Source: Stella humosa (lineage in GTDB: Bacteria > Pseudomonadota > Alphaproteobacteria > ATCC43930 > Allostellaceae). From it: a stretch of 64,000 bases of DNA. Each line of letters starts with the position of its first letter. Position 1 is the first letter of the stretch. The translations under genes were made by a program, and so were the position numbers. The notes under the pieces were generated by a model. It was not told the origin of the DNA and ran no database searches. It saw only the letters and a list, made by a program, of their open reading frames with translations. Below, piece by piece: positions 12,072-34,326 of the stretch. The stretch is from positions 1,252,001 through 1,316,000 of the forward strand of contig NZ_AP019700.1 of NCBI RefSeq assembly GCF_006738645.1, given 5' to 3'.

Positions 12072-12806
12072 CTACCGCCCGTCCATCGAGCCCATGACGA
12101 GGTAGAGCGCCTTCACCTGGTCGCGCGGGATGACGTATTCGCAGGCCGGGTTGTACTGCCGCACGACGACGGCGTCGGCTTCCGCCCGCACCAGGCGCTT
12201 CACCAGCGCCGTGCCGTCCGTCTTGACGATGACGACATGGCTCAGGCGTCGCGGCACCCGCGTCGGATGGACGTAGAGCATGTCGCCCTGCTCGTACTTG
12301 GGCTCCATGCTGTCGTTCACGACATACATGGCGAAGGCGCCGTTCACCTCGCGCAGGGCCTCCGGCCGGTCGATCCACTCGATGGGGTCGAAATCGATGC
12401 GCTGGCCGTCCGGCCCGGCCTGGGCGCTGCCATAGACGGGCAGGCGGCGGGCGCGGTCGAAATGCACGACGGTCGGCCCGGCCGACCGCAGGTCGGCGGT
12501 GGGAGGACGGGCGGCAATCGTGGGCTGGGCGGGCACGGAACCGGGCGGTGCGGGCTCGATGCCGACCAGGTCGGGCGTAGTGCCGGCCAGTTCCATCGCG
12601 CGGTCGGCGGCGATGCCGCGCTCGGCCAAGATGCCGGCCACCCGACGCATCAGGTCGACCGGCAGAAACGGCTTCTTGAAGCGGTCCTCGTAATGCTGGT
12701 AGCCGGTCAGCGACATGCCGAGCGCGTCGGCGGTCTGTCGCATGGACAGGCCGGCCTCCTCGCGCAGGACCTTCAGGCCCCGGGCCGCTTGCGATGCCTC
12801 GACCAT
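12072..12806 (-). CDS. LexA/CI-type phage repressor with S24 autoprotease domain
   Basis: A 244-residue repressor. Residues 8-60 form an XRE helix-turn-helix (L-S-M-R-Q-T-A-D-A-L-G-M-S). Residues about 120-240 are an S24 peptidase: Ala130-Gly131 cleavage site, nucleophile Ser166 in V-N-D-S-M-E-P, and general base Lys203 in A-L-V-K-R-L. The residues for RecA-stimulated self-cleavage are intact, so SOS-type induction is expected. It is the only leftward gene of the block and diverges from all head and tail genes. The ATG at 12806 is the last one before the HTH; starts further upstream run into the operator region. Confidence 0.9.
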   Translation of the reverse strand: MVEASQAARGLKVLREEAGLSMRQTADALGMSLTGYQHYEDRFKKPFLPVDLMRRVAGILAERGIAADRAMELAGTTPDLVGIEPAPPGSVPAQPTIAARPPTADLRSAGPTVVHFDRARRLPVYGSAQAGPDGQRIDFDPIEWIDRPEALREVNGAFAMYVVNDSMEPKYEQGDMLYVHPTRVPRRLSHVVIVKTDGTALVKRLVRAEADAVVVRQYNPACEYVIPRDQVKALYLVMGSMDGR

Positions 12807-12853
12807 GGCCCACCATACCGCAAAGTTGCATTGAACGACACCCCCGCCTTGTC

Positions 12854-12892
12854 CGCATAACGCATAATACGTAGCGTTGTTCCTGTTATGTT
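12854..12892. promoter_or_regulatory. Putative operator region between repressor and late genes
   Basis: An AT-rich island in otherwise GC-rich DNA. The 7-base unit CGCATAA occurs twice in tandem (12854-12860, 12861-12867), and the reverse-oriented related unit TTATGTT lies at 12886-12892. A separate dyad AACGC / GCGTT is at 12859-12863 and 12874-12878 with a 10-base spacer. This is where a repressor would bind to control its own promoter and the rightward one. The half-site assignment is inference. Confidence 0.5.
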
Positions 12893-12910
12893 CCATGACG
12901 GGAGGGCGGA

Positions 12911-13474
12911 ATGACCGCAGAGATCGAAGAGGGGCGCGCGAATCCTTCCTGGCCGCCGACGAGGGATGCCCTGGCGGAGGCACTCGCGGCCGGCCAGACC
13001 CTGGCGGTGATCGGCCGCCGGCTCGGCCGTTCGCCGGCATCGGTCTCGCTGCTGGCCGCGCGCTACGGGCTGCGTTCGGCGCGGGCGGCCGGGCGGTTGC
13101 CGCCGTCGGTGCCGCCCGGGCGGTCGCGCGCGCCGGCGGCCGGTGCCAGGCCTTGGCCGCCGAGCGACGACGCGATGGCCGAACTGGCCGCGGCCGGCGT
13201 CGGCGACGGGCGGGCGGCGGCCCTGTTCGGGGTGCATCCTTCGACCTATCGGGCGTGGCGTCGGCGGCTGCGCGACCGCAACGGCCCGGCGGCGGGCGGC
13301 GACGGGCCGGCGGCCGACGCGGCCGACTATGGCTATCGTGCCGGTCTCGACTGGCCGGCCTGGGCCCGCTTCGGCGACGATCCGCAGGCCGTCCGCGGCG
13401 ACCGCATCGGCCGCATCCTTCGCCCGATGACCGTGGTCGAAGGGACCAGTTCGCTTGCCTTGCTGGCGGGTTGA
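12911..13474 (+). CDS. Phage early protein with HTH-like segments, function unknown
   Basis: A 187-residue basic, Ala/Arg-rich protein, first rightward gene after the repressor. Two stretches look like helix-turn-helix units: L-A-V-I-G-R-R-L-G-R-S-P-A-S-V near residues 31-45, and a second near 92-115 (A-A-A-L-F-G-V-H-P-S-T-Y-R-A-W). Its position suggests a DNA-binding regulator, or a packaging helper that marks the DNA. No catalytic motif is visible. Confidence 0.55.
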   Translation: MTAEIEEGRANPSWPPTRDALAEALAAGQTLAVIGRRLGRSPASVSLLAARYGLRSARAAGRLPPSVPPGRSRAPAAGARPWPPSDDAMAELAAAGVGDGRAAALFGVHPSTYRAWRRRLRDRNGPAAGGDGPAADAADYGYRAGLDWPAWARFGDDPQAVRGDRIGRILRPMTVVEGTSSLALLAG

Positions 13475-13479
13475 CGGCC

Positions 13480-14025
13480 ATGGCAAGGCCGGGCCGACCG
13501 AGCGATCCTGACGCCAAGCGGCGCCGCCGCACCACCCGGGCCCAGCGCCTGGCGGATGTGGACGGGCCCACGCCCGAACTGCTGGCCCAGCGCCGGCGGG
13601 TGGCCGGCGACGAGCGGGTGGCGATCGACTTCCCGCTCGACGTGCTGGCGGCGCGCCATGCCAAGGACCCGGCGGCGGGGCTGCGGCCGGCGGCCGTCCA
13701 GGCGGGCTGGCGCTTCGCCCGCCTGGCCTGGCGGCTGTCGCGGGCGCCGGTGGCCTTGCCCCCGCTCTTCTGGGCCGCCCGGCTGGAGCGGGCGGGGCCG
13801 ACGTCCCCGCCCGCCGACATCGTCGCGCAGGAAGAGGCCGAGCGCCGGGCGCTCCATCGCTACCGGGCGGCGCGGGCCGCGCTGGGCCTGGCTGGCCCGG
13901 CGGCGGTGCGCGCGGTCGATGCAGCCGTGGTGGCGCTGGAACTGCCGGGCTGCCCCGCCCGGCTGTCCGACCTGCGCCTGGGGCTGGCGGCGCTGGCGGC
14001 GCATTTCGAGCGGCCGGCTAACTAA
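13480..14025 (+). CDS. Phage-block hypothetical protein
   Basis: A 181-residue protein starting 5 bases after the previous stop. It begins with a very basic segment (K-R-R-R-R-T-T-R) and is otherwise helical and Ala/Arg-rich, with no motif I recognise. It lies between the early HTH protein and the terminase genes, so a DNA-binding or packaging role is possible but unproven. Frame use matches its neighbours. Confidence 0.5.
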   Translation: MARPGRPSDPDAKRRRRTTRAQRLADVDGPTPELLAQRRRVAGDERVAIDFPLDVLAARHAKDPAAGLRPAAVQAGWRFARLAWRLSRAPVALPPLFWAARLERAGPTSPPADIVAQEEAERRALHRYRAARAALGLAGPAAVRAVDAAVVALELPGCPARLSDLRLGLAALAAHFERPAN

Positions 14026-14028
14026 AAA

Positions 14029-14049: not shown

Positions 14050-14140
14050 AGAACGGTGGGCGGTGTACCAAAAAGCACGATCGGCGCGGTGCCCTGGCGA
14101 GGGGCCCCGCGCCGAATGCGTTTCAGGGGGAGGGCCGGCG

Positions 14141-14674
14141 ATGGAGGCAACGGATCGGGGTGCCGAGCGCCGCGCCGCCGCCCGCCGCCGGGCCGAGGCA
14201 CTGGCCCTGCGCACCGCCGGGCTGGACTATGGCCGGATTGCCGCCAGCCCCGACGGCGAGGGCCCGGCGACCTTGTTCCCCTCTGCCACCGCCGCCCGCC
14301 GCGCCGTCGCCCGGGCGCTGCGCGAGGCCGGTGACGAGCCGGATGTGGAGCGTCGCCTTCAGGCCCGCCGGCTCGACCGAGCGCTGGCCGGCGCCTGGAC
14401 CAAGGCCGATGGCGGCGACGGCCCGGCGATCGACCGCATCCTGGCGATCGAGACCAGGCGCGCCCGCCTGCTGGCGCTGGACCTGCCGGAGGATGCAGCG
14501 GTCGACGACGGCGCGGCGGTGCAACAGGCCGCGGCGGAGGTCGCCCGCCGGCTGCAACGCCTGGCCGACCTGCTGAATGCCCGGGCGCCGCGGCCGCCGG
14601 CAGCGGCGGTCGCACGCTGCACGGCCTGCGCGGACGATCGGGAAACGTCCGTGGCGGCGGGGGCGTCGGCATGA
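14141..14674 (+). CDS. Putative terminase small subunit
   Basis: A 177-residue protein whose stop overlaps the large terminase start (ATGA). Its N-terminal half resembles a recognition HTH (A-L-A-L-R-T-A-G-L-D-Y-G-R-I-A), followed by the segment R-R-L-D-R-A-L-A-G-A-W near residue 80, then D-G-P-A-I-D-R-I-L and R-R-A-R-L-L-A-L-D. This is the order of small-terminase-like proteins that end in a helical oligomerisation domain. It would select the DNA to be packaged and regulate the large subunit. Identification rests mainly on position and this pattern. Confidence 0.6.
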   Translation: MEATDRGAERRAAARRRAEALALRTAGLDYGRIAASPDGEGPATLFPSATAARRAVARALREAGDEPDVERRLQARRLDRALAGAWTKADGGDGPAIDRILAIETRRARLLALDLPEDAAVDDGAAVQQAAAEVARRLQRLADLLNARAPRPPAAAVARCTACADDRETSVAAGASA

Positions 14675-16020
14675 ACCAGTCGGTCGCCGCACGCCTGGCC
14701 GCCCGTCCGGATTTGGGCTCGGCCTTCCTGGCCTCGTTGTCACCGGCCGCCCGCGCCCACCTGCTGCACGAATGGCGGTTCTGGGCCCGGCCGATGCAGC
14801 TACCGCCGCCGCCGCCTTGGCGGGTCTGGTTCATCCAGGCCGGCCGCGGCGCCGGCAAGACCCGGGCGGCGGCCGAATTCATCCGCGCCGAGGTGACGGA
14901 GGGCCGGGCGCGCCGCATCGCCATCGTCGGCGAGACGGCGGCCGACGTGCGCGACGTGATGGTCGAGGGGCCGTCCGGCATCCTGGCCGTGTCGCCGCCC
15001 TGGGCGCGGCCGCGCTGGCAGCCCTCGCTGCGCCGGCTCACCTGGGCCAACGGCGCCGTCGCCACGACCTTCGCGGCCGTCGACCCCGAGCAGCTCCGCG
15101 GGCCCGAGCACGACCTGGCCTGGGCCGACGAGGTCGCCAAATGGCCGGACGAGGAGGCCTGGCACAACCTGATGATGGGGCTGCGGCGGGGCGAGGCGCG
15201 CTGCATCGCCACCTCGACGCCGCGCCCGCGCGCCTGGCTGAAGCGCCTGCTGGCCGATCCCGGCACCGTGGTGACCCGCGGCACGACCGAGGACAATGCC
15301 GCCAACCTGGCGCCGGCCGCCCTGGCCGACCTGGCGCGCCGCTATGGCGGGACCCGCCTTGGCCGTCAGGAGCTGGCGGGCGAGTTCCTGGAGGATGTGC
15401 CGGGCGCGCTCTGGCAGCGCGCGTTGTTCGAGCGGCCGGGCTTCCGCGCCGCGCCGGCCGAGCCGCCGGTGCGGGTCGTGGTCGCGGTCGACCCGGCGGC
15501 CACGGCGGGCGAGGACAGCGCCGAGACCGGCATCGTGGCGGCCGCCCGCGACCGGGCCGGGCGCTTCTACGTCCTGGCCGATGCCAGCGCCCGCCTGTCG
15601 CCGGCCGGCTGGGCCAGGCGGGCGGTCGCGACCTTCGATCGCCACGGCGCCGACCGCCTGATCGGCGAGGCCAACAATGGCGGCGACATGGTGGAGGCGG
15701 TGCTGCGCCGCGCCGCCGAGGCGATGGCGGCGGACGGGCTGCGGCCATCGCCGGATCTGGCCTACCGCAAGGTGACGGCCAGCCGCGGCAAGCAGGCACG
15801 GGCCGAGCCGGTGGCCGCCCTCTACGAGCAGGGCCGGGTCCACCATGCCGGCCGCTTCGATGCATTGGAGGATCAGATGTGTGCCTACCTTCCGGGCAGC
15901 GACGGCCCGTCGCCCGACCGCGTCGACGCGCTGGTCTGGGCGCTGACGGCCCTTTCCGACGGGCCGGCGGTGCCGGTCGTGGCCCCCTTCTTCTTCGGGG
16001 GCGGCGATGGCCGGCGCTGA
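14671..16020 (+). CDS. Terminase large subunit
   Basis: A 449-residue DNA-packaging motor with nuclease. Walker A G-R-G-A-G-K-T at residues 58-64 and a Walker B-like D-L-A-W-A-D-E at about 149-155 form the ATPase. The nuclease half has V-A-V-D-P-A-A-T, then G-E-A-N-N-G-G-D-M and D-A-L-V-W-A-L, the three acidic clusters of the RNase H-like fold. Length and motifs fit the alphaproteobacterial prophage/GTA-type terminases (DNA-packaging protein family) better than lambda gpA. It ends overlapping the portal start by 14 bases. Confidence 0.93.
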   Translation: MNQSVAARLAARPDLGSAFLASLSPAARAHLLHEWRFWARPMQLPPPPPWRVWFIQAGRGAGKTRAAAEFIRAEVTEGRARRIAIVGETAADVRDVMVEGPSGILAVSPPWARPRWQPSLRRLTWANGAVATTFAAVDPEQLRGPEHDLAWADEVAKWPDEEAWHNLMMGLRRGEARCIATSTPRPRAWLKRLLADPGTVVTRGTTEDNAANLAPAALADLARRYGGTRLGRQELAGEFLEDVPGALWQRALFERPGFRAAPAEPPVRVVVAVDPAATAGEDSAETGIVAAARDRAGRFYVLADASARLSPAGWARRAVATFDRHGADRLIGEANNGGDMVEAVLRRAAEAMAADGLRPSPDLAYRKVTASRGKQARAEPVAALYEQGRVHHAGRFDALEDQMCAYLPGSDGPSPDRVDALVWALTALSDGPAVPVVAPFFFGGGDGRR

Positions 16021-17260
16021 ACCCGACCTGGCGGAACTGGGCCGGTCCGGCCTGCGCGCCTGGTCCGGCCTGGTGCGCGAGGAGTTCCTGCCCGAGCTGC
16101 AGGGTCGCCGTGGCGTCGCCGTCTATCGCGAAATGGCGGCCAACGACCCGGTCGTGGGGGCGGTCCTCTTCGCGGTCGAGATGACCCTGCGCGGCGTGCC
16201 CTGGTCGGTCGAGCCGGCCGGCGGTGATGCCGCGGCGCGGGATGGTGCGCGTTTCCTGGAAAGCGTGCGCGACGACATGAGCCACGGCTTCGACGACTTC
16301 CTGGTCGAGGTGCTGGGCATGCTGGTGCATGGCTGGGCCTGGTTCGAGATCGTCTGGAAGCGGCGCCCGGCGGATGGCCGCATCGGCCTGCGCAAGCTGG
16401 CGCTGCGCGGGCAGGAGACGCTGCTGCGGTGGGAGTTCGATCCGGCGGGCGGCGTGCGCGGCCTGTGGCAGGCAGCCTCGCCCGAGATGCCGCAGCCGGT
16501 CTTCGTGCCGATCGAGAAGTCGCTGCTGTTCCGCACGACCACGGCCAAGGGCAATCCCGAGGGCCGCTCGATCCTGCGCAATGCCTATCGCCCCTGGTAC
16601 TTCAAGAAGCGCCTGGAGGAGGGGGAGGCGATCGGCTACTGGCGCGCGCTGGGCGGCCTGCCGGTCGCCCGCATCCCGGCCCGCTTCATGGCGGCCGGTG
16701 CGGCCCCCGAAGAGCGTGCGCTGTTCGAGGACTTCCAGCGCATCGTCCGCGACACCCAGGTGGACGAGCGCGCCGGGCTGGTGCTGCCGTCCGACCGCGA
16801 CGAGCACGGCCACCCCTATTTCGAGTTCGGGCTGCTGGGGGCGCCATCCGGCCAGTCGGTGCCGATCCGCGAGGCGATCGTCGACCGCAGCCGCGAGATC
16901 GCGATGACGGCGCTGGCCGATTTCATCCTGCTCGGCCGCGACGGCAATGGCTCCTACGCGCTGGCCCGCGACAAGGGCGACCGCTTCGAGACGGCCTTGA
17001 CCGCCTGGCTCGGCACCATCGCGGCCGTCCTCAACCGCCATCTCGTGCCGCGCCTGTGGCGCATCAACGCCCTGCCGCCCGCCACCATGCCGCGCTTCGT
17101 GCCGGGCCGGGTCGGCCGGGTCGATGCCGCCACCCTGGCCGGCCTGGTGGAGCGGCTGGCGGCGGCGGGCGTGCCGCTTTTCCCCGACGACGGGCTCGCC
17201 CGCTTCCTGCGCACGGCGGCCGGCCTGCCGCTGCCCGATCCCAACCCGGAGCAATCGTGA
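16007..17260 (+). CDS. Portal protein, DUF935 (Mu gp29-like) family
   Basis: A 417-residue portal protein forming the dodecameric ring at the capsid vertex through which DNA enters and leaves. It shows features of the DUF935 class: E-M-A-A-N-D-P-V-V-G-A-V near residue 42, a W-F-E-I-V-W strand, a basic K-K-R-L-E-E-G segment, and a C-terminal helix leading to the tail face. DUF935 portals are best known from Mu-like phages, but no Mu transposition genes are present. The stop overlaps the protease start at 17260. Confidence 0.85.
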   Translation: MAGAEPDLAELGRSGLRAWSGLVREEFLPELQGRRGVAVYREMAANDPVVGAVLFAVEMTLRGVPWSVEPAGGDAAARDGARFLESVRDDMSHGFDDFLVEVLGMLVHGWAWFEIVWKRRPADGRIGLRKLALRGQETLLRWEFDPAGGVRGLWQAASPEMPQPVFVPIEKSLLFRTTTAKGNPEGRSILRNAYRPWYFKKRLEEGEAIGYWRALGGLPVARIPARFMAAGAAPEERALFEDFQRIVRDTQVDERAGLVLPSDRDEHGHPYFEFGLLGAPSGQSVPIREAIVDRSREIAMTALADFILLGRDGNGSYALARDKGDRFETALTAWLGTIAAVLNRHLVPRLWRINALPPATMPRFVPGRVGRVDAATLAGLVERLAAAGVPLFPDDGLARFLRTAAGLPLPDPNPEQS

Positions 17261-17673
17261 TGACCGAGCATTCCTTCGCCCTCACCGTGCCGATCGCCAA
17301 GGCCGACGCGACGCTCCGCACCGTCTGGGGCTGGGCCAGCGTGTCGGTCGAGGCCGGCCAGCCCCTGGTCGATGCCGAGGGCGACGTGATCGCGACCGAC
17401 GAGCTTGTCCGCGCCGCCCACGCTTTCATGGCGCAATCCCGCCGCGGGGCGGCCGGACATGCCGACGGCGGGGATCAGACCCCCGCCGTCGGCACTGTCG
17501 TCGAAAGCCTGGTCGTCAGCCCGGCGATCCAGGCCGTGTTGGGCATGCCGCCCGGCCGCGAGGGCTGGTTCGTCGGCATCCGCATCGACGACCCCGACGC
17601 CTGGGCCGAGGTGCTGGCGGGCGAACTGACCGCGCTGTCGATTGGCGGCCGCGCCCGCCGCCTGCCGGCCTGA
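17260..17673 (+). CDS. XkdF-like prohead serine protease
   Basis: A 137-residue protein with the XkdF layout: V-W-G-W-A-S-V, then D-x-E-G-D-V-I, A-H-A-F-M, W-F-V-G-I-R-I and the closing A-L-S-I-G-G-R-A-R-R. His at about residue 68 in A-G-H-A-D and Ser at about 128 in L-S-I-G-G are candidates for the catalytic pair. It would trim scaffold during head maturation. It begins at the last base of the portal gene and is followed, after 30 bases, by the scaffold-like gene. Confidence 0.75.
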   Translation: MTEHSFALTVPIAKADATLRTVWGWASVSVEAGQPLVDAEGDVIATDELVRAAHAFMAQSRRGAAGHADGGDQTPAVGTVVESLVVSPAIQAVLGMPPGREGWFVGIRIDDPDAWAEVLAGELTALSIGGRARRLPA

Positions 17674-17703: not shown

Positions 17704-18123
17704 ATGACCCATCGCCTCGTCGACTTGTCGGTGACCGAGATCAGCCTCTGCCGCCAGGGCCTCAACCCCGGTGCCCGCATCCTGCTGGTGAAGGGGACGG
17801 ATGCCGGCCCCGATCCGGTGGCGGCCGCCGTCGCCAAGGCAGTCGCGGCCAAGGAAGCCGAGATCGCCGCCCTGAAGGCCGAGCGCGAGCGCCACGATCG
17901 CCTCGCCAAGGCCGCGCGCTGGTCGGCGATCGGCATCGACCCCACGGCCTATGCCGAGCATGCCGGCCAGGTGTCGCCCGCAACCTGCGGCTGGCTCGAC
18001 GCCATCTTCGACCGGGCCGCCGCCGCCCTGGCCGAGGCCGATCTCTATGGCGAGCGCGGCCGGGCGGCCGTCCACAAGGCCGAGTCCGCCATCGTCCGCC
18101 GGGCGCGCGCCGCCCGCGGCTGA
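17704..18123 (+). CDS. Scaffold-like protein (C-terminal partner of XkdF protease)
   Basis: A 139-residue protein. It opens with V-T-E-I-S-L-C-R-Q-G-L-N-P-G-A, matching the E-I-S-L-V-x-x-x-A-N-P-G-A strand usually found at the end of XkdF-type proteases, followed by a coiled-coil (K-A-V-A-A-K-E-A-E-I-A-A-L-K). It seems that a protease-scaffold protein has been split into two genes here. It would direct capsid assembly and then be degraded. GGAGA precedes its start. Confidence 0.62.
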   Translation: MTHRLVDLSVTEISLCRQGLNPGARILLVKGTDAGPDPVAAAVAKAVAAKEAEIAALKAERERHDRLAKAARWSAIGIDPTAYAEHAGQVSPATCGWLDAIFDRAAAALAEADLYGERGRAAVHKAESAIVRRARAARG

Positions 18124-18161: not shown

Positions 18162-18833
18162 ATGACGGCGAAGACGTTGCCGGCCGCGGCCGGCGACTGG
18201 CTCAAGCACGAGTCCGATCCGCGCTTCACCCGCGAGCGGGTGGTGCTGCTGTCGAGCGGCAGCGCGCGCACCATCCCGTCCGGCACCGTGCTGGGCCGCA
18301 TCGCCACGGCCACGCCCGCGACCGCTGCGGCGGTCGGCGGCAATACCGGCAACGGCGCGATGGGTGCCGTCGCAGTGGGGGCGGGGGCCGAGCCCGGAAC
18401 CTATCGGCTGCGGATCTTTGCCGCCGCCACCGATGGCGGCACCTATGCCGTCACCGCGCCGGATGGCCGGCTGGTCGGCATCGGCCGGGTCGGCTCGGCC
18501 TTCGCCGGCGGCGGTCTCGCCTTCACGCTGGCGGACGGGGCGACCGACTTCGCGCTCGGCGACAGCTTCACCATCGCGGTGGCCGCCGGCTCCGGCAAGC
18601 TGGTCGAGCTGGACCCAGCCGGGACCCAGGGCACCGCCCGGCCGGCCGCCATCCTGGTCGATCCGGTGCTGGTGCCGGCCGCAGGCGACGCCGCCGGCCT
18701 GGCGCTGGTGCGCGGGCCGGCGCTGGTCCGCGCCGACGGCCTCTCCTGGCCGGACGACCATGAGCCGGGCGAGGTCGCGGCCGGGCTGGCCGACCTCGAG
18801 CGGCTCGGCATCGTCGCCCGCCCCGGCGCCTGA
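18162..18833 (+). CDS. Head decoration protein (lambda gpD-like)
   Basis: A 223-residue protein. A gpD-type segment occurs early (F-T-R-E-R-V-V-L-L-S-S-G, I-P-S-G-T-V-L-G-R-I), and A-A-I-L-V-D-P-V near the C-terminus with a G-A-G-A-E-P-G-T-Y-R-L insertion between. It is larger than lambda gpD (110 residues) because of this central beta-rich insertion. AAGGAG lies 8 bases before the ATG. Its place directly before the major capsid gene is the usual one. It would stabilise the expanded head after packaging. Confidence 0.82.
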   Translation: MTAKTLPAAAGDWLKHESDPRFTRERVVLLSSGSARTIPSGTVLGRIATATPATAAAVGGNTGNGAMGAVAVGAGAEPGTYRLRIFAAATDGGTYAVTAPDGRLVGIGRVGSAFAGGGLAFTLADGATDFALGDSFTIAVAAGSGKLVELDPAGTQGTARPAAILVDPVLVPAAGDAAGLALVRGPALVRADGLSWPDDHEPGEVAAGLADLERLGIVARPGA

Positions 18834-18865: not shown

Positions 18866-19888
18866 ATGACCGTCATCACCAATCCGTTCGACGCCGGTGG
18901 CTTCTCGCTGGCCGAGCTGACCGAGGCCATCAACCTGCTGCCCAACCGCTACGGCCGGGTGGGCCAGCTCGGCATCTTCCGCGAGGAGGGGGTGACCCAG
19001 CGCCAGATCGTGCTGGAGGAGGCCGACGGCACGCTGAACCTGCTACCCTCCGTGCCGCCCGGCGGCCCGCCGACGCTGGCCAACCGCACGCAGCGCCGCC
19101 AGCGCGGCTTCGTCGTGCCGCACATCCCCCATGACGACGTGATCCTGCCGCAGGACGTGCAGGGGGTGCGGGCCTTTGGCGCCAGCGATGCCGCCGACCC
19201 GCTGGCCCAGCTCATGGAGCGCCGGCTGGCCCGCATGCGCATGAAGCATGCGCAGACGCTGGAGTTCATGCGCGTCAACGCGCTGCGCGGCCAGCTTCGC
19301 GACGGGGCGGGGACCGTCCTCTACGACTGGCATGCGGAGTTCGGCATCATCCAGAAGACGGTCGACTTCGCGCTCGGCACCTCGGGCACGGAAGTGGCCG
19401 AGAAGTGCCGCGAGGTGCTGCGCCACATGGAGACCAACCTCCGCGGCGAGAGCATGACTGGCGTCCATGTCCTGGTCAGCCCGGAATTCTGGGACAAGCT
19501 GGTGAAGCACGCCTCGGTGAAGGAGGCCTACCGCTACTTCGCGGCCACCGGCGGCCAGCCGCTGCGCGAGGACATGCGCCGCGGCTTCCCCTTCGCCGGC
19601 CTGGTGTTCGAGGAGTATGGCGGCACCGTCACCCTGTCCGGCAACGGCAGCGAGCCGCTGCTGCCGGCCAATGACGGGCTGGCCGTGCCGCTCGGCACGG
19701 CGGACGCCTTCGTCACCTACTTCGCGCCGGCCAACCTGATCGAGGCGGCCAACACCATCGGCCTGCCGCTCTATGCCCGCCAGGTCGGCCGCCCGGATGG
19801 CCGCGGCATCGACCTGATGACCGAGAGCAACCCGCTGCCCGTCGTCCGCCGCCCGGCGCTCGCCGTGCGCATCCACAGCTCGAACTGA
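18866..19888 (+). CDS. Major capsid protein (lambda gpE family)
   Basis: A 340-residue head protein of the HK97 fold, gpE subgroup. Telling segments are N-P-F-D-A-G-G-F-S-L-A-E-L-T, the R-x-x-R-G-F-V-V-P-H-I-P-H block near residue 85, Q-D-V-Q-G-V-R-A-F-G, and the C-terminal R-Q-V-G-R-P-D-G-R-G-I-D-L-M-T-E-S-N-P-L. CCGGAGA lies before the ATG. About 420 copies of such a protein would form the shell in a T=7 head. Confidence 0.93.
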   Translation: MTVITNPFDAGGFSLAELTEAINLLPNRYGRVGQLGIFREEGVTQRQIVLEEADGTLNLLPSVPPGGPPTLANRTQRRQRGFVVPHIPHDDVILPQDVQGVRAFGASDAADPLAQLMERRLARMRMKHAQTLEFMRVNALRGQLRDGAGTVLYDWHAEFGIIQKTVDFALGTSGTEVAEKCREVLRHMETNLRGESMTGVHVLVSPEFWDKLVKHASVKEAYRYFAATGGQPLREDMRRGFPFAGLVFEEYGGTVTLSGNGSEPLLPANDGLAVPLGTADAFVTYFAPANLIEAANTIGLPLYARQVGRPDGRGIDLMTESNPLPVVRRPALAVRIHSSN

Positions 19889-26626: not shown

Positions 26627-27067
26627 ATGGCGGCAGGCACCTTCACCCTCTACGGCGCGGCGATCGAGCGGATCGCCAAGGGCGAGATCGACCTGGACGG
26701 GCACAGCTTCAAGGCGCTGCTCGCCACCGCATCCCACACGCCCGACGCGGCCACCCATGACGACCTGGCCGACGTCAGCAACGAGGTGGCGGGCGGTGGC
26801 GACTATGCCCGCGCGACGCTGGGCTCGGTCGCGGTGACCCGGTCGGGCACGACGGTCAAGTTCACCTCGTCTCCGGTCAACTTCGGCAGCGACGTGACGA
26901 TCACCGCCAAGTGGCTGGTGATCTTCGACGACAGCCATGCGAGCGACGCGCTGCTGGGCTATGTCGACCTCAACACCGGCGGCGGCTCGGCCGCGTCTTC
27001 GGACGGACCGTTCGTGGTGTCGCCCGACGGCACCAACGGCTGGTTCACCTTGGCACCCGCCGCCTGA
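26627..27067 (+). CDS. Phage minor virion protein, small beta-rich family
   Basis: A 146-residue protein beginning A-G-T-F-T-L-Y-G-A-A. It matches a common phage protein pattern: I-D-L-D-G-H-S-F-K-A-L-L near residue 22, then H-T-P-D-A-A-T-H-D-D-L-A-D-V, and A-K-W-L-V-I-F-D-D-S-H-A near 88. Such proteins occur near tail-tip genes but have no proven role. AGGAG lies before the ATG. It probably is a structural or adhesion component. Confidence 0.7.
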   Translation: MAAGTFTLYGAAIERIAKGEIDLDGHSFKALLATASHTPDAATHDDLADVSNEVAGGGDYARATLGSVAVTRSGTTVKFTSSPVNFGSDVTITAKWLVIFDDSHASDALLGYVDLNTGGGSAASSDGPFVVSPDGTNGWFTLAPAA

Positions 27068-27080: not shown

Positions 27081-30000
27081 ATGCCGGCCCAGCCCCTCTG
27101 GAACGCAGCCGACAAGGATGCGGACCTCACCCTCTCCAACGCCAATCGCACCTGGCAGGCGGCGTCCGGCCTGGTCGGCGCCGTGCGTTCGACGATCGGG
27201 CTGTCGGCCGGCAAGTGGCATGTCCAGCTTTCCCACGTCTCGTCCGCGGGCAGTGCCGCACGCCATGGCTTCGCCACGGCGGGCCACGCCATCGGCACGC
27301 CGCCCGGCGACACCGCCCAGAGCTGGGTGATCAACGGCCAGGGCACGATCCGCGCCGGCGGCAGCAACGGCGCCGACTACGACAACTTTGCCAATGGCGA
27401 TGCGGTCGACCTGTTCGTCGATCTCGACGCCGGGCGCATCTGGTACGGCCGGGGTGGCACCGTCCATGCCGGCAATCCCGCCGCCGGCACCGGCGCCATG
27501 CACAGCTTCACCGGCGGCACGACGCTGTTCCTGGCGGGTGGCATGGATGGCGGCGGCACCACCCGTGGCGGCACCCTGCGGCTGCTGGCGGACTATGTCG
27601 GCACCACGCCGGCCGGCTTCAGTCGCGGCTGGGGATCGGCCGGGGACGGCGTCGAACTGACGATCGGCGCCGCCGCACTGGCGGTGCAGGGCCGCGGGGC
27701 GACGCTGGTGTCCGGCACGGGCCAGGGCCTGGCGGTTGCGACCAGCGGGCTCGCTGCCGGCGGTGCCGCGGTCGGCCTTTCGGTCGGCATGCTGGGCCAG
27801 GCCGCGGCCGGGGCTGCGGCGGCAACTGGCGCATTGGCGTCCGTCCAGGCCGGCGTGGGCGCGTTCGCGACTGCGATCGGCGGCGAGGTCGTCCTCGCCG
27901 GCGGTTCCGCCGAAGCCGCGATCAGCGGCGGCATCGCGCTGGCGGCAGCCGCCGGCCGTTGCATCACCACGGGTGCGGCCGGTGCGCTGGTCGCGGGCCA
28001 GATGCTGATGGCCGCGGCAGCCGTGCCCATGGCGACCGGCCACCCCGGCTTGCTGCAAGCCGGCACTGGCCAGCTCTGCGAGGCAGGCGCGGCAACGATC
28101 GAGGCCACCGGGTCGCCCGTCGTCATTGGTGCCGGCGCCGGTGTCGATTGCATCTCCGTGCCGGGCGCCGTGGCGTGGGCAGGTTCGCCGATCGCCCTCT
28201 CGGCCGGCCAGTTGCTGCATGGCGGGCCGGGCGGCGTCCAGGCCAGCCCCGGGGCGGCGGACCTGCTGGCTGGGGCGGGGCAGAGCCTGGCTTCGGCGAC
28301 AGCGAGCGTCGTCCTCTCCGGCGCGGTCCCGTCCGTCATCGGCGGCGCGGGTGTCGCGCTGGATGCGATGGCGGGCGAATGGTTCGCGAACGGCCATTCA
28401 GTCGGGCTGGCTGTCGGCACTGGCGCCGTATTGGCTGTCGCGCGCGGCGAAGTCGTGCTGGCGGAGGGCCTCGCCAGCGTTTCGATCGCCTGGGATTTCG
28501 CGGGCACGGTCGCGGCCGGCGGGGCAACCATCGTCGGCGGCGCCTGCGTCGTGGCGGCCGGCACGCCGGTGCTGAACCCGGTGCCGATGCCGGGCGACCT
28601 GGCGGCATTGCTGGCACCGGCGGCCGGCACCCTCGAATGGGTCGTGACCATCGATGCCTGGGATGCCGAAACGGCGACTCTCGTGCCGCTGCGCTGGTCG
28701 GCCGGCGACTACATCACGCGGGCCGCCGACGACCCGGCCAGCACGCGCTTCCCCGGCCGGCTGGCGGACTTCCAACTGCGCCGGCAGCTCTGGTCCGGAA
28801 TGGCCGTGTTTGGTCGGTCCGAGCCGGCGCGTGGCGTGGTCGTGCTGGAGAATGCCGATGGCGCACTCGACCACCTGGCCACCGCCGTCACCACGACCGG
28901 CGGCCGGCGCTGGCATTTCCGCTGGCGCCGCGTCCAGGTCATGGTCGGCCATCCGGCCTGGCCATGGGCCGCCTTCCGCCCGGTCTTCACCGGCCTGGTC
29001 GAGGAGCCGGCCTTCGACGACGGCCGCGCGACCTTCCTGGTGCGCGACCGGCTGCGCCGCCTCGACCGGCCGCTGCAAGATGCGACCTTCCGTGGCGACC
29101 GCGTCCTGCTGGCCTCGGCCTCGTCGGTCGCGGTGGGTTTCGGCGCGCGGACCTTCGTGCTGCCCGACCTCGTCGCCAATGGCGGCTTCGCCACGTCGCT
29201 CGCCGGCTGGGATGCCGGCGCCGACTGGATAGGCGGGTCGGCCAGGGCGACCAAGTCGCCCGGCGTTTCCGCGGCGCTGGAGCAGAACCTGGCGACGGCC
29301 GCCGACAACCTCTATCGCGTCCGCCTCGACGTGGTGCGCACGGCCGGCAGCCTGCAGCCGATGGCGGGGGGCGAGCCCGTGGGCGACCCGATCGCGGCCA
29401 CCGGCACCTACCGCCCGACCTTCCTCGCCGTGGGGTCGACGACCCGGCTGTCCTTCCGGGCCGACGCCGATTTCGCCGGCACGGTCGACGCGGTCTCGGT
29501 GCGCCAGGAGCCGCTGGCGGTGGCCGGCGACGGCGTGCGCATCGCTCGCACCGGCGACCTGACCGGCACCTGGATGGCGGGGACGGTCGCTGGCTGGACC
29601 GAAGCCACCGGGGAACTGGCGGTCGAGGCGACGGACTGTGCCGGCACCGGCACCCATGCCGACTGGTCGATCTGGCTGCGTCCCCATGCCGGCACGGCGG
29701 AGCTGGCGGGCAAGAACCTGCCGGCGGTGCTGGGCACCGTGCGGCATGCCCAGCCGCCCGAACTGGGCTCGGTGCAGGGGCTGTGGCTCTATCGCCTGGC
29801 GGACGGGCCGGTCCGGGTGGAGCCGGCCCTTGGGCATGGCATCCATGATGGCGGGGTCCTGCTCGATCCCGCGGAGTCCTTTCCGCCCGCCCCGGGACAG
29901 GCGTTCGTCGATGCCGCGGAAGGTGCCCTCTGGGTCGCCTCGCGGCCGCAATACCCGTTGACCGCGACGCTGGACGGCGGGCTTGGCGCGACCGCCGGGC

Positions 30001-31777
30001 GGCGGGTCTTCGCCGTGCCCGGTGGCTACAGCTTTCGCGTGCCGGCCGGCGTCACCGCGCTCCGGGCCAAGCTGTGGGGCAGCAGGGGCGGCCATGGCGG
30101 GGTCGGCACGACCGGCTTTCCGGGTGGCGGTGGGGGCTTCGTCGATGGCGTGCTGGCCGTGGCGCCGGGCGACCTGCTGACGGTCGTGGTCCCCGGTGGC
30201 GGCGGGGCCGGCAATGGCGGGGTGACGGCCGGCGCCGGCGGCATGTCGCCCGGCTCTCCGAAGGCGGCCGTGGCGGCCTGGGCTCGGCTGGCTCGGGCGG
30301 CGGTGGCGGCGGTGCGGCGGGGATCATCCAGGGGCTGACGGCGGTCCTCCAGGCGCCGGGCGGTGGCGGCGGCTCGGCCGAGGCTGCCGGCGGGCCCGGT
30401 GGTGGTGCCACGGGCAGCGACGGTGGCGATGGCGGCGCCCGTCACGGCAACGGCGGCACGACGGCCGCGGGCGGCGGCGGTGGCAGCGGCCAGTCCGGCG
30501 GATCGGCGGGCAGCGCCGGCACGGCCAGCAAGGGGGGCAATGGCGGCGACGGCAGCAGCTCCGGCGGCGGTGGCGGCGGTGGCGGCGGCCGCGCCGGCGG
30601 CGGTGGCGGTGCCGGGCCGACGGCGGGTGCCGGCGGCGGTGGTGCCGCCCTGGCGCCGGGCGGCTCGACCCTGGCCGGTGCCGGCACCGTTCCCGGCGGG
30701 GTCGACGATGCGGACCATGCCGCTGGTGTCGGCACCGGCGGCGACGACGGGGCATCGGGCGGAGCCGGCCGCGTCGTGCTGGCCTGGACGCCCGATGCCG
30801 CGGCGACCGCCACGGCGGCCGGCATGTTGATGGCCGTGCTGCGCGACCGGCTGGGCTTTCGCCATGTCGAGGCCGGGCCGGCGGTCCTGGTGTCGATCGC
30901 GGCCGATGCCGCCAGCCGCACCTTCACGGCCGGCGGTGGCAGCTTTGCCGCACTTGGCATCCAGCCGGGCGACCAGGTCAGCTTCGCCGGCCTGTCGCAG
31001 AATGCCAGCACCAATTTTACGGCGCGCCTGGTCGGGACCACCAGTCTCGTCGTGCAGGAGGCGGTCGCCGACTGCGCCGCCGAGACCGGCTTCAGCCTGG
31101 CGAGCGGCGAGCTGGATGCGCCCGCCCTGGCGGCGCTGGCAGCCGCCTGTCCACAGCCGCTGGGCGCCTGGCTCGGCGAGGAGACCCCGACCGGCCGCGA
31201 CCTGGTGGACCGTATCGCGGCTACGGTCGGCGCCTGGATCGACACCGACCCGGCCGGCCTGCTGACGGTCGGTCGCCATGACGGTCCGGCCGTCGTGGCC
31301 GACCATGCGCTCGGGCCACGCCAGTTCACCGCCGTCCGCCGGGTAGCGGTCGGGCCGGCGCTGTGGCGGCGCCGGATCGGCGCACGCCGCTGCTGGCGCG
31401 TCCACGGCCCGGCTGAGATCGCGCCGGCCGCGGCCGAGGCCACCCGCCGCTTCCTGCTGGCCGAATGGCGCGAGGGGGTGGCCGAGGACGCGATCGTCCT
31501 CACCGACGATCTGGGTGCCGAGGAAGCGTTCGCCGCCGGCCTGTTCGACCGGGTCGCGGACGCCACGCAGGAGGCCGCCCGCCAGCTCGCCCTGCATTCG
31601 CCAGCGGTGCTTGCCTTCGAGGTCGAGGCCACGCTGGTGGCACTCGACTGGCGGCCCGGCCGGACCGTGGCGCTGACCGCGCCCGAGGTCGGCCTGCACG
31701 CCCCGCGAAACCTGGTCCTCGTCGGCAAGGCCCTGCGGCTGGAGGCCGACGCCGTGACGTTGACCCTGCTGGGATAG
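27081..31777 (+). pseudogene. Tail-tip/host-specificity protein, one frame change near 30260
   Basis: The frame from the ATG at 27081 stays open to 30338, but near 30255-30265 the homologous reading moves to the frame ending at 31777; one missing base explains it. Rejoined, the product is about 1,565 residues. In order: an SPRY/B30.2-like lectin fold (residues 1-190), about 320 residues of degenerate A/G/V-rich repeats, a beta-rich tail module, a Gly-rich segment (after about 1,020), and a C-terminal tail-hub-like domain ending V-T-L-T-L-L-G. It probably contacts the host surface. No slippery heptamer is seen at the switch, so sequence error or mutation is more likely than programmed shifting. 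Confidence 0.75.
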
Positions 31778-31783: not shown

Positions 31784-32626
31784 ATGGCCAACTGCCTCAT
31801 CGCGCCGCTCAATTGGGCTTGGCTCCAGGGGGTCGCCTTCTCCGGTGGCAACTGGCTGGAGAGCCTGCCGCTGACCCGGCTGGCGACCGCCGACCCGCTG
31901 GACTATGCCCGGTCGGCTTCCGCCGACCCGGCGGATACCTGCTTCACCGTGACCCTCGGCGGCCAGCGCCTGGTCGATGTCGTGGCCTTGTTCCACGCCA
32001 ACTTCACGCCGGCCGCCCGCATCCGCCTCACCAGCGACGAAGGGTGGGACAGCGGCTGGCAGGATGCCTGGCCGGTGACCCATCGGCCCGAAGGCGGCTA
32101 CCTGCCGTTCGGCCGGCCCTCGGCCGACGGGCGCATGCCGGCCGACGAGGCCGACCCGCGCGGCGTCAACTTCCTGCTGGTGCTGGATGGTCCGATCACC
32201 GCCGGCAGCCTGACGGTGGAGATCGACGACGCCGACAATTCCGACGGCCATCTCCAGGCCTCGATCCTGTTCGTGGCCAAGGGCGAGCGACCGGCCGTCG
32301 ACATCTCGCCCGGCCTGTCGCTGGGGCTGGTGGAGGAGGCGACGGTGCGCCGCAGCCGCGCCGGCACGCTGGTCGGCCGGCGGCTGTGGCAGCGCCGGCG
32401 CCTTGCCGGGGCCCTGCGCTGGCAGGATCGCGACCGGGCGCTGGCCCATTGGTTCGAGGCCCAGCGGATGGCCGGCCGCACGCGGCCGATCCTGCTGTCG
32501 GTGGCGCCGGAGCCCGGCATCCACCGCGACCGGCTGACGATGCTGGGCCATCTCGACGAGCCGACCCCGGTCGAGCACGCGCAATGGCGCTACTGGGGCT
32601 GGCCTTTCGCCCTGACGGAGGTGTGA
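31784..32626 (+). CDS. Tail-tip associated phage protein
   Basis: A 280-residue protein starting 6 bases after the tail-tip stop. It has mostly beta-strand character, with V-N-F-L-L-V-L-D-G-P-I in the middle and R-R-S-R-A-G-T-L-V-G-R-R-L-W-Q-R near residue 185. The position and the W-R-Y-W-G-W-P end suggest a distal tail or fibre-associated protein. I do not recognise a named family. Confidence 0.6.
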   Translation: MANCLIAPLNWAWLQGVAFSGGNWLESLPLTRLATADPLDYARSASADPADTCFTVTLGGQRLVDVVALFHANFTPAARIRLTSDEGWDSGWQDAWPVTHRPEGGYLPFGRPSADGRMPADEADPRGVNFLLVLDGPITAGSLTVEIDDADNSDGHLQASILFVAKGERPAVDISPGLSLGLVEEATVRRSRAGTLVGRRLWQRRRLAGALRWQDRDRALAHWFEAQRMAGRTRPILLSVAPEPGIHRDRLTMLGHLDEPTPVEHAQWRYWGWPFALTEV

Positions 32627-32632
32627 GCCGCC

Positions 32633-32914
32633 ATGCAGATCGAACGCACGCGTGCCGGCCGCGAGCCGGAGGTGACCCATGCCGACCTGCTGGCCCGCAT
32701 CGCGGTGCTGGAAATCCAGATCGGCCATCTGCGCGAGACGATCCAGGCCGGTGCCGCCGAGCGCGCCCGCATCCTGGCCGAGTTGACCGAGCTGAAGCTG
32801 CTGGTGGCGCAGATCCGCGGCGCCTGGCGCGTGGTCGGTGCCGCCTGCGGCGCCGTCGGCATGGTCATGGGCGCCCTGCTGCCGACCCTCTTCCGCACCA
32901 TCATCGGAGGCTGA
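32633..32914 (+). CDS. Small coiled-coil membrane protein (holin-like)
   Basis: A 93-residue protein: residues about 18-60 form a coiled-coil (L-L-A-R-I-A-V-L-E-I-Q-I-G-H-L) and residues 66-88 one hydrophobic helix (V-V-G-A-A-C-G-A-V-G-M-V-M-G-A-L-L). It is placed directly before the endolysin-like gene, in the lysis region. It could be a holin or an accessory tail/lysis protein; a single helix does not decide this. Confidence 0.55.
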   Translation: MQIERTRAGREPEVTHADLLARIAVLEIQIGHLRETIQAGAAERARILAELTELKLLVAQIRGAWRVVGAACGAVGMVMGALLPTLFRTIIGG

Positions 32915-32915
32915 G

Positions 32916-33347
32916 ATGAGCCGAATGCCGCGGGGTATCCGCAACCACAATCCCGGCAACATCGACCGCGGCCGCGACCGCTGGCAGGGCATGGCAGCCG
33001 ACCAGTCGGGGGACCCGCGCTTCGTGGTGTTTGAGGCGCCGGAATGGGGCGTCCGCGCCATCGTGCGGGTGCTGCGCTCCTATCGCGACCGCCACGGCCT
33101 GTCGACCGTGCGGGCCATCATCGCGCGCTGGGCACCGCCGGCCGAGAATCGCACGGACCTCTATGTCGGGTTCGTCTGCGACCGGCTGGGCGTGGGGCCG
33201 GACGAGACGGTCGACATCGACCGGCCGGAGGTTCTGCGCACGCTGGTGCGCGCGATCATCCAGAAGGAGTGTGGTCCGGGCCCGTTGCCGGGCGGCGACT
33301 GGTACGACCAGGACACGCTGGATGCAGGAATCCGGCGTGCCGGGTGA
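32916..33347 (+). CDS. Endolysin-like muramidase/structural protein P5 family
   Basis: A 143-residue protein starting G-I-R-N-H-N-P-G-N-I, the mark of the P5/virion muralytic family, followed by W-Q-G-M near residue 25, F-E-A-P-E-W-G-V-R-A, and R-W-A-P-P-A-E-N-R-T-D-L-Y near 72. It lacks a signal peptide, so it would need a holin, or travel in the particle and cut the peptidoglycan of the target cell. Start at 32916, 1 base after the previous stop. Confidence 0.78.
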   Translation: MSRMPRGIRNHNPGNIDRGRDRWQGMAADQSGDPRFVVFEAPEWGVRAIVRVLRSYRDRHGLSTVRAIIARWAPPAENRTDLYVGFVCDRLGVGPDETVDIDRPEVLRTLVRAIIQKECGPGPLPGGDWYDQDTLDAGIRRAG

Positions 33348-33672
33348 GCCTGTCGAGCGTCATCCCGGCGACGACCCCCGCCTGGCCGGGCTGGAGACGA
33401 GCTGGGTCTGGCGCCGTCGCGCGGTGTGGCTGACGCTGCTGTTCTGCATGGGTGGCCTGTTCTGGCTCATGGGCTGGGGCCGGCACGACAGCCGCCTGCA
33501 CGAGACGATCGCCTCGGCACTCGCCCTGCTGCTGGGCTCGGTCGTCATGGCCTACATCGCCGGCGCCACCTACGACGACCGCTCGCGCCGCCAGACCTGG
33601 GCCGGGTGGGAGGCAAGCCGCCTGGCGACGGCGGCCCAGCGCCGCGACGACCAGGGCGCGGCCGCCGGCTGA
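33322..33672 (+). CDS. Two-helix membrane protein, probable holin
   Basis: A 116-residue protein with two membrane helices, at about residues 34-52 (V-W-L-T-L-L-F-C-M-G-G-L-F-W-L-M-G-W) and 62-84, and a charged C-terminus (Q-R-R-D-D-Q). The ATG at 33322 lies 26 bases inside the endolysin-like gene. The topology and place between endolysin and spanins fit a class II holin. No family is named with certainty. Confidence 0.62.
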   Translation: MQESGVPGEPVERHPGDDPRLAGLETSWVWRRRAVWLTLLFCMGGLFWLMGWGRHDSRLHETIASALALLLGSVVMAYIAGATYDDRSRRQTWAGWEASRLATAAQRRDDQGAAAG

Positions 33673-33701
33673 GCTCGACCAGAAGGGAGGAAGGAGGTCC
33701 G

Positions 33702-34211
33702 ATGCTGTTCAGCGCATTGGCGGCCGTCGCCGGCCGCGTTCCGATCCTGGCATGGGCGATGGCGGCTGCCATCGCGGCGGCGGCGTTGTGGATCTGGGTG
33801 GAGCGGGATGCCGCCGCCGGGTGGCGCCATCGTGCGGCGGCGGCCGAGGCGCGGGCGGCGTTGCTTGGAACGCAGCTCGACGAGGCGACCGCTATCAACG
33901 CCGGCAACCTGGCCGAACTGGACCGTCTGCGCCGCGCCCATGCCCGCGACCTGGCCGACATGGCGGCCGACCTCGCCCGGTCGCGCAAGGCCGGCACCCG
34001 CCTGACCGTCGTCCGACAGGAGATTGCCCGTGACCCTGATGCATCCCAACCGCTGGCCGATCGCTGCCCTGCTGTCGATCGCCTGTTCGACCGCCTGCTC
34101 GCCCGACCCGGAGTTGCGGCTGATGACCCGGATCGAGCCGGTGGCGATGCGGCACCCGGCCGCCCTGCTGGACTGCCAGCCGGAGCCACCGCTGCCGCCG
34201 CCACCCCGTAG
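33702..34211 (+). CDS. Rz-like inner-membrane spanin
   Basis: A 169-residue protein with one N-terminal membrane helix (residues 14-32) and a coiled-coil (A-L-L-G-T-Q-L-D-E-A-T-A-I-N-A-G-N-L-A-E) in the periplasm, the layout of i-spanins. AAGGAGG is 8 bases before the ATG. A second gene, the outer-membrane partner, starts inside it in another frame, as in lambda Rz/Rz1. Together they fuse the inner and outer membranes at lysis. Its Pro/Ala-rich tail is where the two frames overlap. Confidence 0.75.
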   Translation: MLFSALAAVAGRVPILAWAMAAAIAAAALWIWVERDAAAGWRHRAAAAEARAALLGTQLDEATAINAGNLAELDRLRRAHARDLADMAADLARSRKAGTRLTVVRQEIARDPDASQPLADRCPAVDRLFDRLLARPGVAADDPDRAGGDAAPGRPAGLPAGATAAAATP

Positions 34212-34326
34212 CGTCGCGGCGGCGCTGGCCTGGATCATTGAGAGTCGGGCTGCCGGCGCCGACTGCCGGGCACGCCTGGCCTGCATCCGGGCGCGACAGG
34301 ACGGCGCCGGCTGCGCGCAGGACTAG
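34039..34326 (+). CDS. Rz1-like outer-membrane lipoprotein spanin, nested in Rz gene
   Basis: About 95 residues in a different frame from Rz. The ATG at 34039 (or GTG at 34030) opens a lipoprotein signal (W-P-I-A-A-L-L-S-I-A-C-S-T-A-C-S) with Cys16 or Cys20 as the lipid site. The mature part has a proline run (P-P-L-P-P-P-P), typical of Rz1. It extends 115 bases past the end of Rz, so it is overlapping rather than fully embedded. The nested position next to an i-spanin is strong support. Confidence 0.72.
   Translation: MHPNRWPIAALLSIACSTACSPDPELRLMTRIEPVAMRHPAALLDCQPEPPLPPPPRSVAAALAWIIESRAAGADCRARLACIRARQDGAGCAQD

Follow-up and report, generated by a model that had tools for sequence, protein, structure and literature searches.

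A siphophage-type particle cluster kept at one chromosomal site in Stella: a probably domesticated prophage and candidate gene transfer agent

Stella humosa is a star-shaped soil bacterium, and the genome of strain ATCC 43930 consists of a single contig of 5,832,650 bp, of which a 64-kb stretch (G000:C1:1252001-1316000, hereafter the window) was analysed. At positions 12072-34326 of the window, corresponding to 1264-1286 kb of the genome, lies a compact cluster of phage-type genes composed of one leftward S24 repressor gene and about 25 rightward genes, a count that takes the tail-tip gene as one. Genes were called by codon usage and families were assigned by Pfam, PHROG and NCBIfam searches, the family scan covering every gene up to a last open reading frame (ORF) at 34024-34326. 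The initial annotation of this DNA had described a leftward S24 repressor followed by some 22 rightward genes for packaging, head, tail and lysis, and the Pfam and PHROG matches confirm this arrangement, with 25 rightward genes in place of about 22. Pfam and PHROG matches for the terminase, portal, capsid, tail tube and endolysin point to caudoviricete ancestry of the particle proteins, and the gene set looks like that of a complete siphophage-type particle including packaging and lysis. Three genus-mates were used for comparison, namely S. vacuolata ATCC 43931 (G003), Stella sp. ATCC 35155 (G001) and the metagenome-assembled genome (MAG) SJ646 (G002); the first two are, like S. humosa (G000), complete genomes, and the MAG is a draft of 570 contigs and the most divergent member.

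The repressor gene (12072..12806, reverse strand; PF00717, E 3.3e-13; phrog_4) encodes an S24/LexA-like protein with a helix-turn-helix (HTH) domain and an autopeptidase, and all further genes lie on the forward strand. The first of them (12911..13474; PF13384, E 4.6e-9) encodes an HTH DNA-binding protein, a possible regulator, with 57-64% amino acid identity in the three relatives, and is followed by a protein without a family in Pfam, PHROGs or NCBIfam (13558..14025; 65-75% in the three relatives). The next gene (14141..14674) precedes the large terminase gene, matches phrog_645 and probably encodes the small terminase (TerS), for which the structural matches are weak: with an AlphaFold model of pLDDT 79, the best BFVD hits were terminase small subunits (E 1.1e-4 and 1.3e-4) at low TM-scores of 0.28-0.34, Foldseek against the PDB gave nothing significant, with the phage G20c small terminase second at E 1.8, and PDB sequences searched with a profile yielded a designed helical repeat protein (E 0.003) followed by weaker matches. 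The large terminase (TerL, 14671..16020; PF03237 and PF17289) carries what we take to be its ATPase and nuclease motifs, and these are invariant in the four Stella species. The head genes comprise a portal of the DUF935/Portal_Mu family (16007..17260; PF06074, E 2.3e-32, the sole match in the genome), an XkdF/S78_2 head maturation protease (17260..17673; PF14550, E 1.8e-13), a head-region protein that is a scaffold candidate by position (17704..18123; 70-78% amino acid identity in the three relatives, no Pfam or PHROGs family, and NCBIfam matches far under the cut-off), a gpD-type decoration protein (18162..18833; PF02924, E 2e-20) and a gpE-type major capsid protein (Phage_cap_E, 18866..19888; PF03864, E 8.1e-113), which is 91-94% identical in the three relatives.

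The connector and tail genes follow in the order head-tail adaptor Ad1 (19892..20446; phrog_477, E 1.9e-29), head closure Hc1 (20443..20808; phrog_161, E 3.2e-8), HK97-gp10-like tail completion (20805..21119; PF04883, phrog_5), tail terminator (21116..21526; PF13554), tail tube (21555..22967; PF18906, E 3.1e-36), tail assembly chaperones 1 (22981..23385; phrog_313) and 2 (23403..23717; PF23812, phrog_3817), and a tape measure protein of 953 aa (23724..26585), assigned by size and position and resembling in part some very long proteins encoded by two Stella prophages. Beyond it lie a tail-region protein (26627..27067; phrog_644, E 8.5e-22), a tail-tip gene with a glycine-rich tract (27081..31777), both parts of which match phrog_8917 and whose product is presumed to bind the receptor, and a further tail-tip protein (31784..32626; phrog_8610, E 4.6e-34). 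The distal end holds a small protein that is a holin or membrane candidate by position and a C-terminal hydrophobic stretch (32633..32914; 76-83% amino acid identity in two relatives), an endolysin (32925..33347; phrog_873, E 3.4e-54), a membrane protein that is a second holin candidate (33322..33672; phrog_14936, E 5.1e-10), an Rz-like i-spanin with a weak match (33702..34211; phrog_214, E 0.0046; 36-39% in two relatives) and, in the o-spanin position, a small lipoprotein-like ORF (34024..34326) that is not clearly homologous to the ORFs found there in S. vacuolata and ATCC 35155.

In the scanned genes of the cluster, no integrase, transposase core, primase, helicase or methylase was matched at the thresholds used. 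A match of the protease gene to phrog_1530 ("DNA methyltransferase") falls on profile positions 237-351 of 379 and was attributed to the protease part of a fused family, and Mu-like transposition, prompted by the Mu-type portal, was discarded because the 12911 protein matches short HTH parts of transposase models, with no catalytic domain. The S. humosa genome holds five genes of the tyrosine integrase family, the nearest at 960 kb, about 300 kb off the cluster and near another prophage; the nearest lies about 112 kb away in S. vacuolata, beside another prophage, and about 1.7 Mb away in ATCC 35155, this genome-wide search being one for the tyrosine family and not for serine recombinases. Among ten flanking proteins scanned, seven belong to host-type families and three have no family, the four nearer ones being a glycosyltransferase, a YflT protein, a weak PepSY match and an iron permease. 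No direct repeat of at least 18 bp joins the cluster ends, a length that shorter cores would escape, and there is no tRNA gene in the 64-kb window. Thus, what would mark an intact temperate prophage, namely an integrase or transposase, att sites and a replication module, was not found in these scans, in agreement with the initial annotation, which had reported no integration or replication genes and no attachment repeat, the latter holding for direct repeats of the length given; the flanking scans and the integrase search revealed no such module just outside the cluster either.

The cluster is not peculiar to one strain, a possibility that the initial annotation had wished to see checked, and is present in all four Stella genomes. 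A blastp search with 26 cluster entries found all of them, in order, in S. vacuolata and ATCC 35155, and in MAG SJ646 all entries up to gene 26627, beyond which the contig breaks off within the tail-tip region, so that the cluster is traced in this MAG without its distal part. In all four genomes the cluster is bordered on the left by genes 9156 and 10246, and the right flank (YflT-like, PepSY-like and iron permease genes) is common to S. humosa and ATCC 35155 and differs in S. vacuolata. In the latter, glycosyltransferase- and methyltransferase-like genes (identified by reading) stand in place of the YflT and iron permease genes, marking a rearrangement breakpoint at the cluster end. Among the complete genomes the cluster measures 22.3, 22.4 and 22.0 kb, and these three show no gene gain or loss up to the Rz-like gene, and nucleotide identity among species is 72-81% for cluster pieces and 75-84% for flank pieces. 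The long residence proposed in the initial annotation is therefore supported by synteny in four species, and composition, on which that proposal had leaned, is a poorer argument.

Across 61 genomes, the capsid was found in four of four Stella (91-94% identity), in none of 39 sister-family genomes and in two of 18 further genomes of the class at 28-34%, and the portal in nine of the 387 class genomes searched, namely two Stella and seven others with 27-47% identity. Loci around capsid relatives (11 from genome contigs, three of these Stella, and the best 80 of 247 viral ones) and around portal relatives (the best 80 of 236 viral ones and seven short ones) were also inspected; in the 88 non-Stella capsid loci at most two cluster genes recur (capsid and decoration) and the 87 non-Stella portal loci share at most three, with many loci ending at a contig edge or at the 10-kb flank, where distal genes could escape. 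Protein 31784 had no relative on viral contigs in a pattern-based scan and, among 50,697 phage records, a single weak match.

Purifying selection on the structural genes, predicted for a retained system, is seen. The ratio of nonsynonymous to synonymous substitution rates (dN/dS) was calculated by the Nei-Gojobori method, with the two halves of the tail-tip gene as separate entries, the Rz-like gene too divergent for use and the 34024 ORF not entered; the cluster medians were 0.286 against S. vacuolata (25 of 26 entries), 0.304 against ATCC 35155 (25 of 26) and 0.333 against SJ646 (19 of 26), similar to medians of flanking host genes of 0.206 (n=7), 0.298 (n=11) and 0.382 (n=3), respectively. 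The maximum cluster value was 0.70, all 25 entries stayed below 0.52 in S. vacuolata and below 0.48 in ATCC 35155, and the capsid (0.12-0.17), portal (0.11-0.19) and TerL (0.14-0.28) were among the most constrained genes. As the GC content at third codon positions (GC3) is near 0.9, synonymous divergence is probably underestimated and the true ratios would be lower. Since the element has no recognised means of its own movement, this constraint is most simply ascribed to selection on the host.

The regulatory region bears sequence elements that fit SOS control. The QAG, NDSMEPKY and LVKRL motifs of the repressor are invariant in the four Stella species, and we take their Ala-Gly, Ser and Lys to be the scissile bond and catalytic residues by analogy with LexA and CI; a search of the repressor against PDB sequences gave no match. 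In the 105-bp gap between repressor and operon lies a perfect GTTC-N7-GTTC box, which we take to be an alphaproteobacterial LexA site (GTTCCTGTTATGTTC; 12879..12893, forward strand), and which is the only such match in the window, for 0.87 expected in 64 kb and about 0.0014 in the gap. The same gap contains a perfect box in S. vacuolata (GTTCGTGATTTGTTC) and, on the opposite strand, in ATCC 35155 (GTTCCGCATTTGTTC), and GTTC-N7-GTTC is also present upstream of S. humosa recA. Together with the recA site, a published GTTC consensus (PMC6473078) supports the LexA-site reading. The SOS-type control envisaged in the initial annotation has thus gained sequence support from the gap box in three of four species, the recA box and the cleavage residues of the repressor. 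Directly before the box, at window positions 12862-12873, a block GCATAATNCGTA is kept in three of four species and could be a promoter -10 element or a repressor operator.

Resident prophages of the same genomes offer an instructive comparison. S. vacuolata carries one at about 4.396-4.435 Mb, in which primase-like genes were identified by reading and which is accompanied by an integrase at 4.4366 Mb. It has no head gene matching those of the cluster and nevertheless has in common with the cluster parts of the tape measure gene, gene 26627, the tail tip, gene 31784, the endolysin and gene 33322. In the tail-tip region this prophage (about 4.398-4.404 Mb of G003:C1) has two stretches in common with the S. 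vacuolata cluster (about 4.303-4.308 Mb), one of 2239 bp (95% of nucleotides identical) and one of 1882 bp (90%), whereas the S. humosa cluster reaches 75-76% in the same region. The receptor-binding module has therefore passed between a prophage and the cluster, at a time that is recent on the scale of the species split. The tail tip is thus that of a Stella phage, consistent with particles aimed at Stella cells. Gene 31784 is thus present in S. vacuolata in a second, close copy, and nothing closely corresponding to this prophage copy occurs in the other Stella genomes. S. humosa possesses a second prophage of the gpE type (about 970-1006 kb), in which a primase-like gene was identified by reading and near which, at 960 kb, an integrase lies, and whose capsid is 33% identical to that of the cluster and unmatched in the other three Stella genomes. 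Such strain-specific prophages contrast with the genus-wide cluster, which counts in favour of domestication.

Base composition gives a further, more nuanced indication. The initial annotation had called the GC content host-like, which does not stand: it is 0.744 in the cluster versus 0.720 and 0.701 in the flanks, and the excess resides at codon positions 1 and 2 (GC1+2), which reach 0.665-0.680 in the clusters versus 0.595-0.652 in the flanks of the four species, with GC3 about equal. Per-gene tests on S. humosa genes, with the glycine-rich gene left out, gave a median GC1+2 of 0.668 for 24 cluster genes versus 0.598 for 39 flank genes (p 5e-5) and a value above that of the S. humosa prophage (32 genes, p 0.007); GC3 did not differ between cluster and flanks (p 0.065) and was a little below that of either prophage (p 0.002 and 0.0002). 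For side-chain carbon, the Stella proteins lie at the low end of their families, in that just four of 88 capsid homologs and nine of 81 portals do not exceed the highest Stella value. An increase in GC1 and GC2 that leaves GC3 normal has likewise been described for RcGTA-like clusters in 212 genomes (Kogay et al., PMC7360931), so that the two kinds of cluster are alike in this respect.

Gene transfer agents (GTAs) have been defined by six features (PMC9662315): proteins of caudoviricete derivation, packaging of mostly random host DNA, a fully endogenized genome, a particle holding less than the GTA genome, vertical inheritance with co-diversification, and delivery of DNA to cells. The Stella cluster shows the first of these, by the family matches given above, and also the third, as it occupies one chromosomal site in four of four species, with no nearby tyrosine integrase and no att repeat of at least 18 bp. 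Co-diversification with the host is favoured by synteny and by a divergence similar to that of the flanks, and less so by the weakly supported trees and the tail-tip exchange in S. vacuolata. The same 2022 classification recognises three independently exapted groups with a known genetic basis, and both alphaproteobacterial groups have heads built on the HK97 major capsid protein (HK97-MCP). RcGTA and CcGTA (Rhodogtaviriformidae) resemble the Stella cluster in being compact packaging-head-tail clusters of Alphaproteobacteria, and perhaps also in their vertical inheritance, and differ from it in their HK97-MCP head, as opposed to the gpE capsid, gpD decoration protein and DUF935 portal found here; the 953-aa Stella tape measure is counted as another difference. 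In Caulobacter, moreover, the LexA-like RogA holds the GTA activators and lacks key cleavage residues (PMC9632790), whereas the Stella repressor adjoins its cluster and retains them. On the other hand, BaGTA (Bartogtaviriformidae), which is alphaproteobacterial, independently domesticated and co-evolved with its host, comprises 29 genes over about 79 kb with an HK97-MCP head and a nearby phage-derived replication origin (PMC9662315); the Stella cluster has another capsid family and no replication gene was found in it, a cryptic origin not having been searched for. Identity with this second GTA type was rejected on the Phage_cap_E capsid, BaGTA being set apart by its description and not by direct protein comparison.

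A relationship with the first GTA type had been considered when TerL first looked RcGTA-like. Relatives of TerL occur in 17 of 39 sister-family genomes, and in the six of their neighbourhoods that were examined they sit among other genes, with at most weak similarity to the repressor (32-39%) or protease (26-31%). The RcGTA marker PF13547 is absent from S. humosa, S. vacuolata and ATCC 35155 and missing in 42 of 43 genomes of the order. With the Phage_cap_E capsid, this sets type I identity aside and upholds the initial annotation, which had proposed for the cluster a lineage other than RcGTA. The sole PF13547 (GTA_TIM) match among the 43 lies on a 4374-bp contig of MAG SJ646 (G002:C132, L237), possibly a contamination, and the ORFs beside it look to us like RcGTA tail genes.

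These observations, taken together, make domestication of the cluster highly probable. The fuller interpretation that we favour, with modest confidence, is that a prophage was domesticated before the known Stella species split and now serves as an SOS-induced GTA independent of RcGTA and BaGTA; function as a GTA is the likelier alternative on balance, although the label itself is not yet earned. Under this interpretation, genes for integration, excision and replication would have been lost and a complete DNA-packaging siphophage particle with lysis genes kept by host selection. DNA damage would activate RecA, LexA would leave the SOS box and the S24 repressor would cleave itself, upon which the rightward operon would be expressed in a fraction of cells. 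TerS and TerL would then fill gpE-type heads with whatever chromosomal DNA is present, packaging presumably being random because the element cannot amplify itself, and endolysin and spanins would open the cell, the tail tip carrying the particle to another Stella cell. Random packaging would be in keeping with the intact TerL motifs and with the lack of recognised replication genes. As to delivery of packaged DNA, ComEC and DprA families are present in all four Stella genomes and also in 10 and 11 of 14 controls, and constitute weak evidence.

Several points weigh against this interpretation. Lambda-type gpE heads hold 40-50 kb, and the Stella head may thus accommodate the whole 22-kb cluster, unlike a typical GTA. 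The tape measure gene of SJ646 (L015) has an in-frame TAA at the position of S. humosa codon 464, gene 31784 is not found elsewhere among the 570 contigs of that MAG, and no perfect SOS box was seen in its 20 kb, nor, when up to two mismatches were allowed, in a scan of 90 bp. The tail-tip and lysis module is, judging from the exchange described above, not purely vertical; four-taxon trees, built from flank, early, head and tail genes, conflict between cluster and flank at low support values (0.61-0.89), and only four Stella species are known. In composition, GC1+2 is not significantly higher than in the 37 genes of the S. vacuolata prophage (p 0.08), nor is side-chain carbon per gene significantly lower (p 0.12, 0.10 and 0.45). 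Lastly, the tail-tip gene is read in two frames, an N-terminal part at 27081-30338 and a C-terminal part open at 30074-31777, the switch lying inside the glycine-rich tract (window 30074-30780, about 200 codons, rich in GGC and GGT), and a frame change occurs in all three complete assemblies and likewise in the S. vacuolata prophage. The indels responsible are of 1-2 nt and differ in kind and place per genome, on which ground programmed frameshifting was rejected, and both halves are constrained (dN/dS 0.33-0.46). Because the Stella assemblies were made from Nanopore reads with Nextera/Illumina polishing (PMC6687932) and the tract is GC-rich, indel errors are a likely explanation; slippage is a possible one.

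Among the other explanations for a domesticated particle, the strongest, though we consider it unlikely, is that of a killer of the PBSX kind, induced by SOS and perhaps carrying host DNA, which would act by killing competitors and not by gene transfer. PBSX is a domesticated, SOS-induced, myovirus-like particle of Bacillus that kills, and the B. subtilis element has the XkdF-type protease family in common with the Stella cluster; it has also been cited as a GTA-like element without DNA transfer (PMC10299305). All the genomic evidence of domestication fits such a particle equally well, as do the SOS box and S24 repressor, and tail-tip exchange with a resident prophage would be expected if target recognition were under selection. 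What speaks for a GTA instead is the constraint on capsid, portal and TerL, which is among the tightest in the cluster although killing needs no DNA-filled head, and the fact that no toxin- or immunity-type gene was recognised, a comparison of seven proteins with PADLOC giving nothing. A tailocin is ruled out by the head and packaging genes and the constraint on those same three.

Somewhat less probable still is a defective prophage that reached fixation by chance or is retained for a single gene (repressor immunity or lysis) and is otherwise slowly decaying. The absence of recognised integrase and replication genes is what decay would leave, and the in-frame stop and missing distal part in SJ646 and the frame switches of the tail tip could be read as its progress; yet at 72-81% nucleotide identity the upper bounds on dN/dS given above hold over all 25 entries, and the three complete genomes have lost no gene up to the Rz-like one. 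It is very improbable that the cluster belongs to a phage or prophage that can still move, its genes for integration and replication having escaped recognition or lying at another place in the genome: the two short proteins without assigned function (13558 and 17704) and the tail-tip and lysis module in common with a true S. vacuolata prophage would leave room for it, but the single site in four species, the similar divergence of flank and cluster and the lack of a free relative with more than three cluster genes among the 88 capsid loci (viral: best 80 of 247) and 87 portal loci (best 80 of 236), many of which are truncated, speak against it.

If the GTA interpretation is correct, an independent lineage with a gpE head would allow recurring steps of domestication to be asked about, such as loss of integration and replication, amino acid economy and capture of a repressor, and a culturable genus with three complete genomes is suited to such a comparison. 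More speculatively, the cluster could represent a third alphaproteobacterial GTA lineage, with a lambda-like gpE/gpD head and a Mu-type portal, genus-wide, governed by LexA/SOS and a cleavable repressor, and with a tail tip refreshed by recombination with prophages to match the current Stella surface; we regard this fuller scenario as tentative. SOS control would link DNA release to DNA damage and would be relevant to the proposal that the Caulobacter GTA serves in repair (PMC9632790). Similar systems might be sought by screening for prophage-like clusters that lack an integrase, show low dN/dS and occupy one site in every species of a genus.

In the open-licence PMC literature on Stella GTAs or prophages and on GTAs, no title or abstract describing this cluster was found. 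WOStri, a putative Wolbachia GTA, is a small head-tail element derived from WO phage, without a regulatory or eukaryotic module, whose GTA status has been proposed from particle DNA in one strain (PMC10299305). WO phage capsids are about 49% identical to the Stella cluster capsid, the likeness to WOStri being judged without its other genes. The closest capsid in the phage collection, at 61% identity, is that of Acidithiobacillus phage AcaML1, a comparison made by capsid only, and this is a 59-kb phage, unlike the 22-kb Stella cluster.

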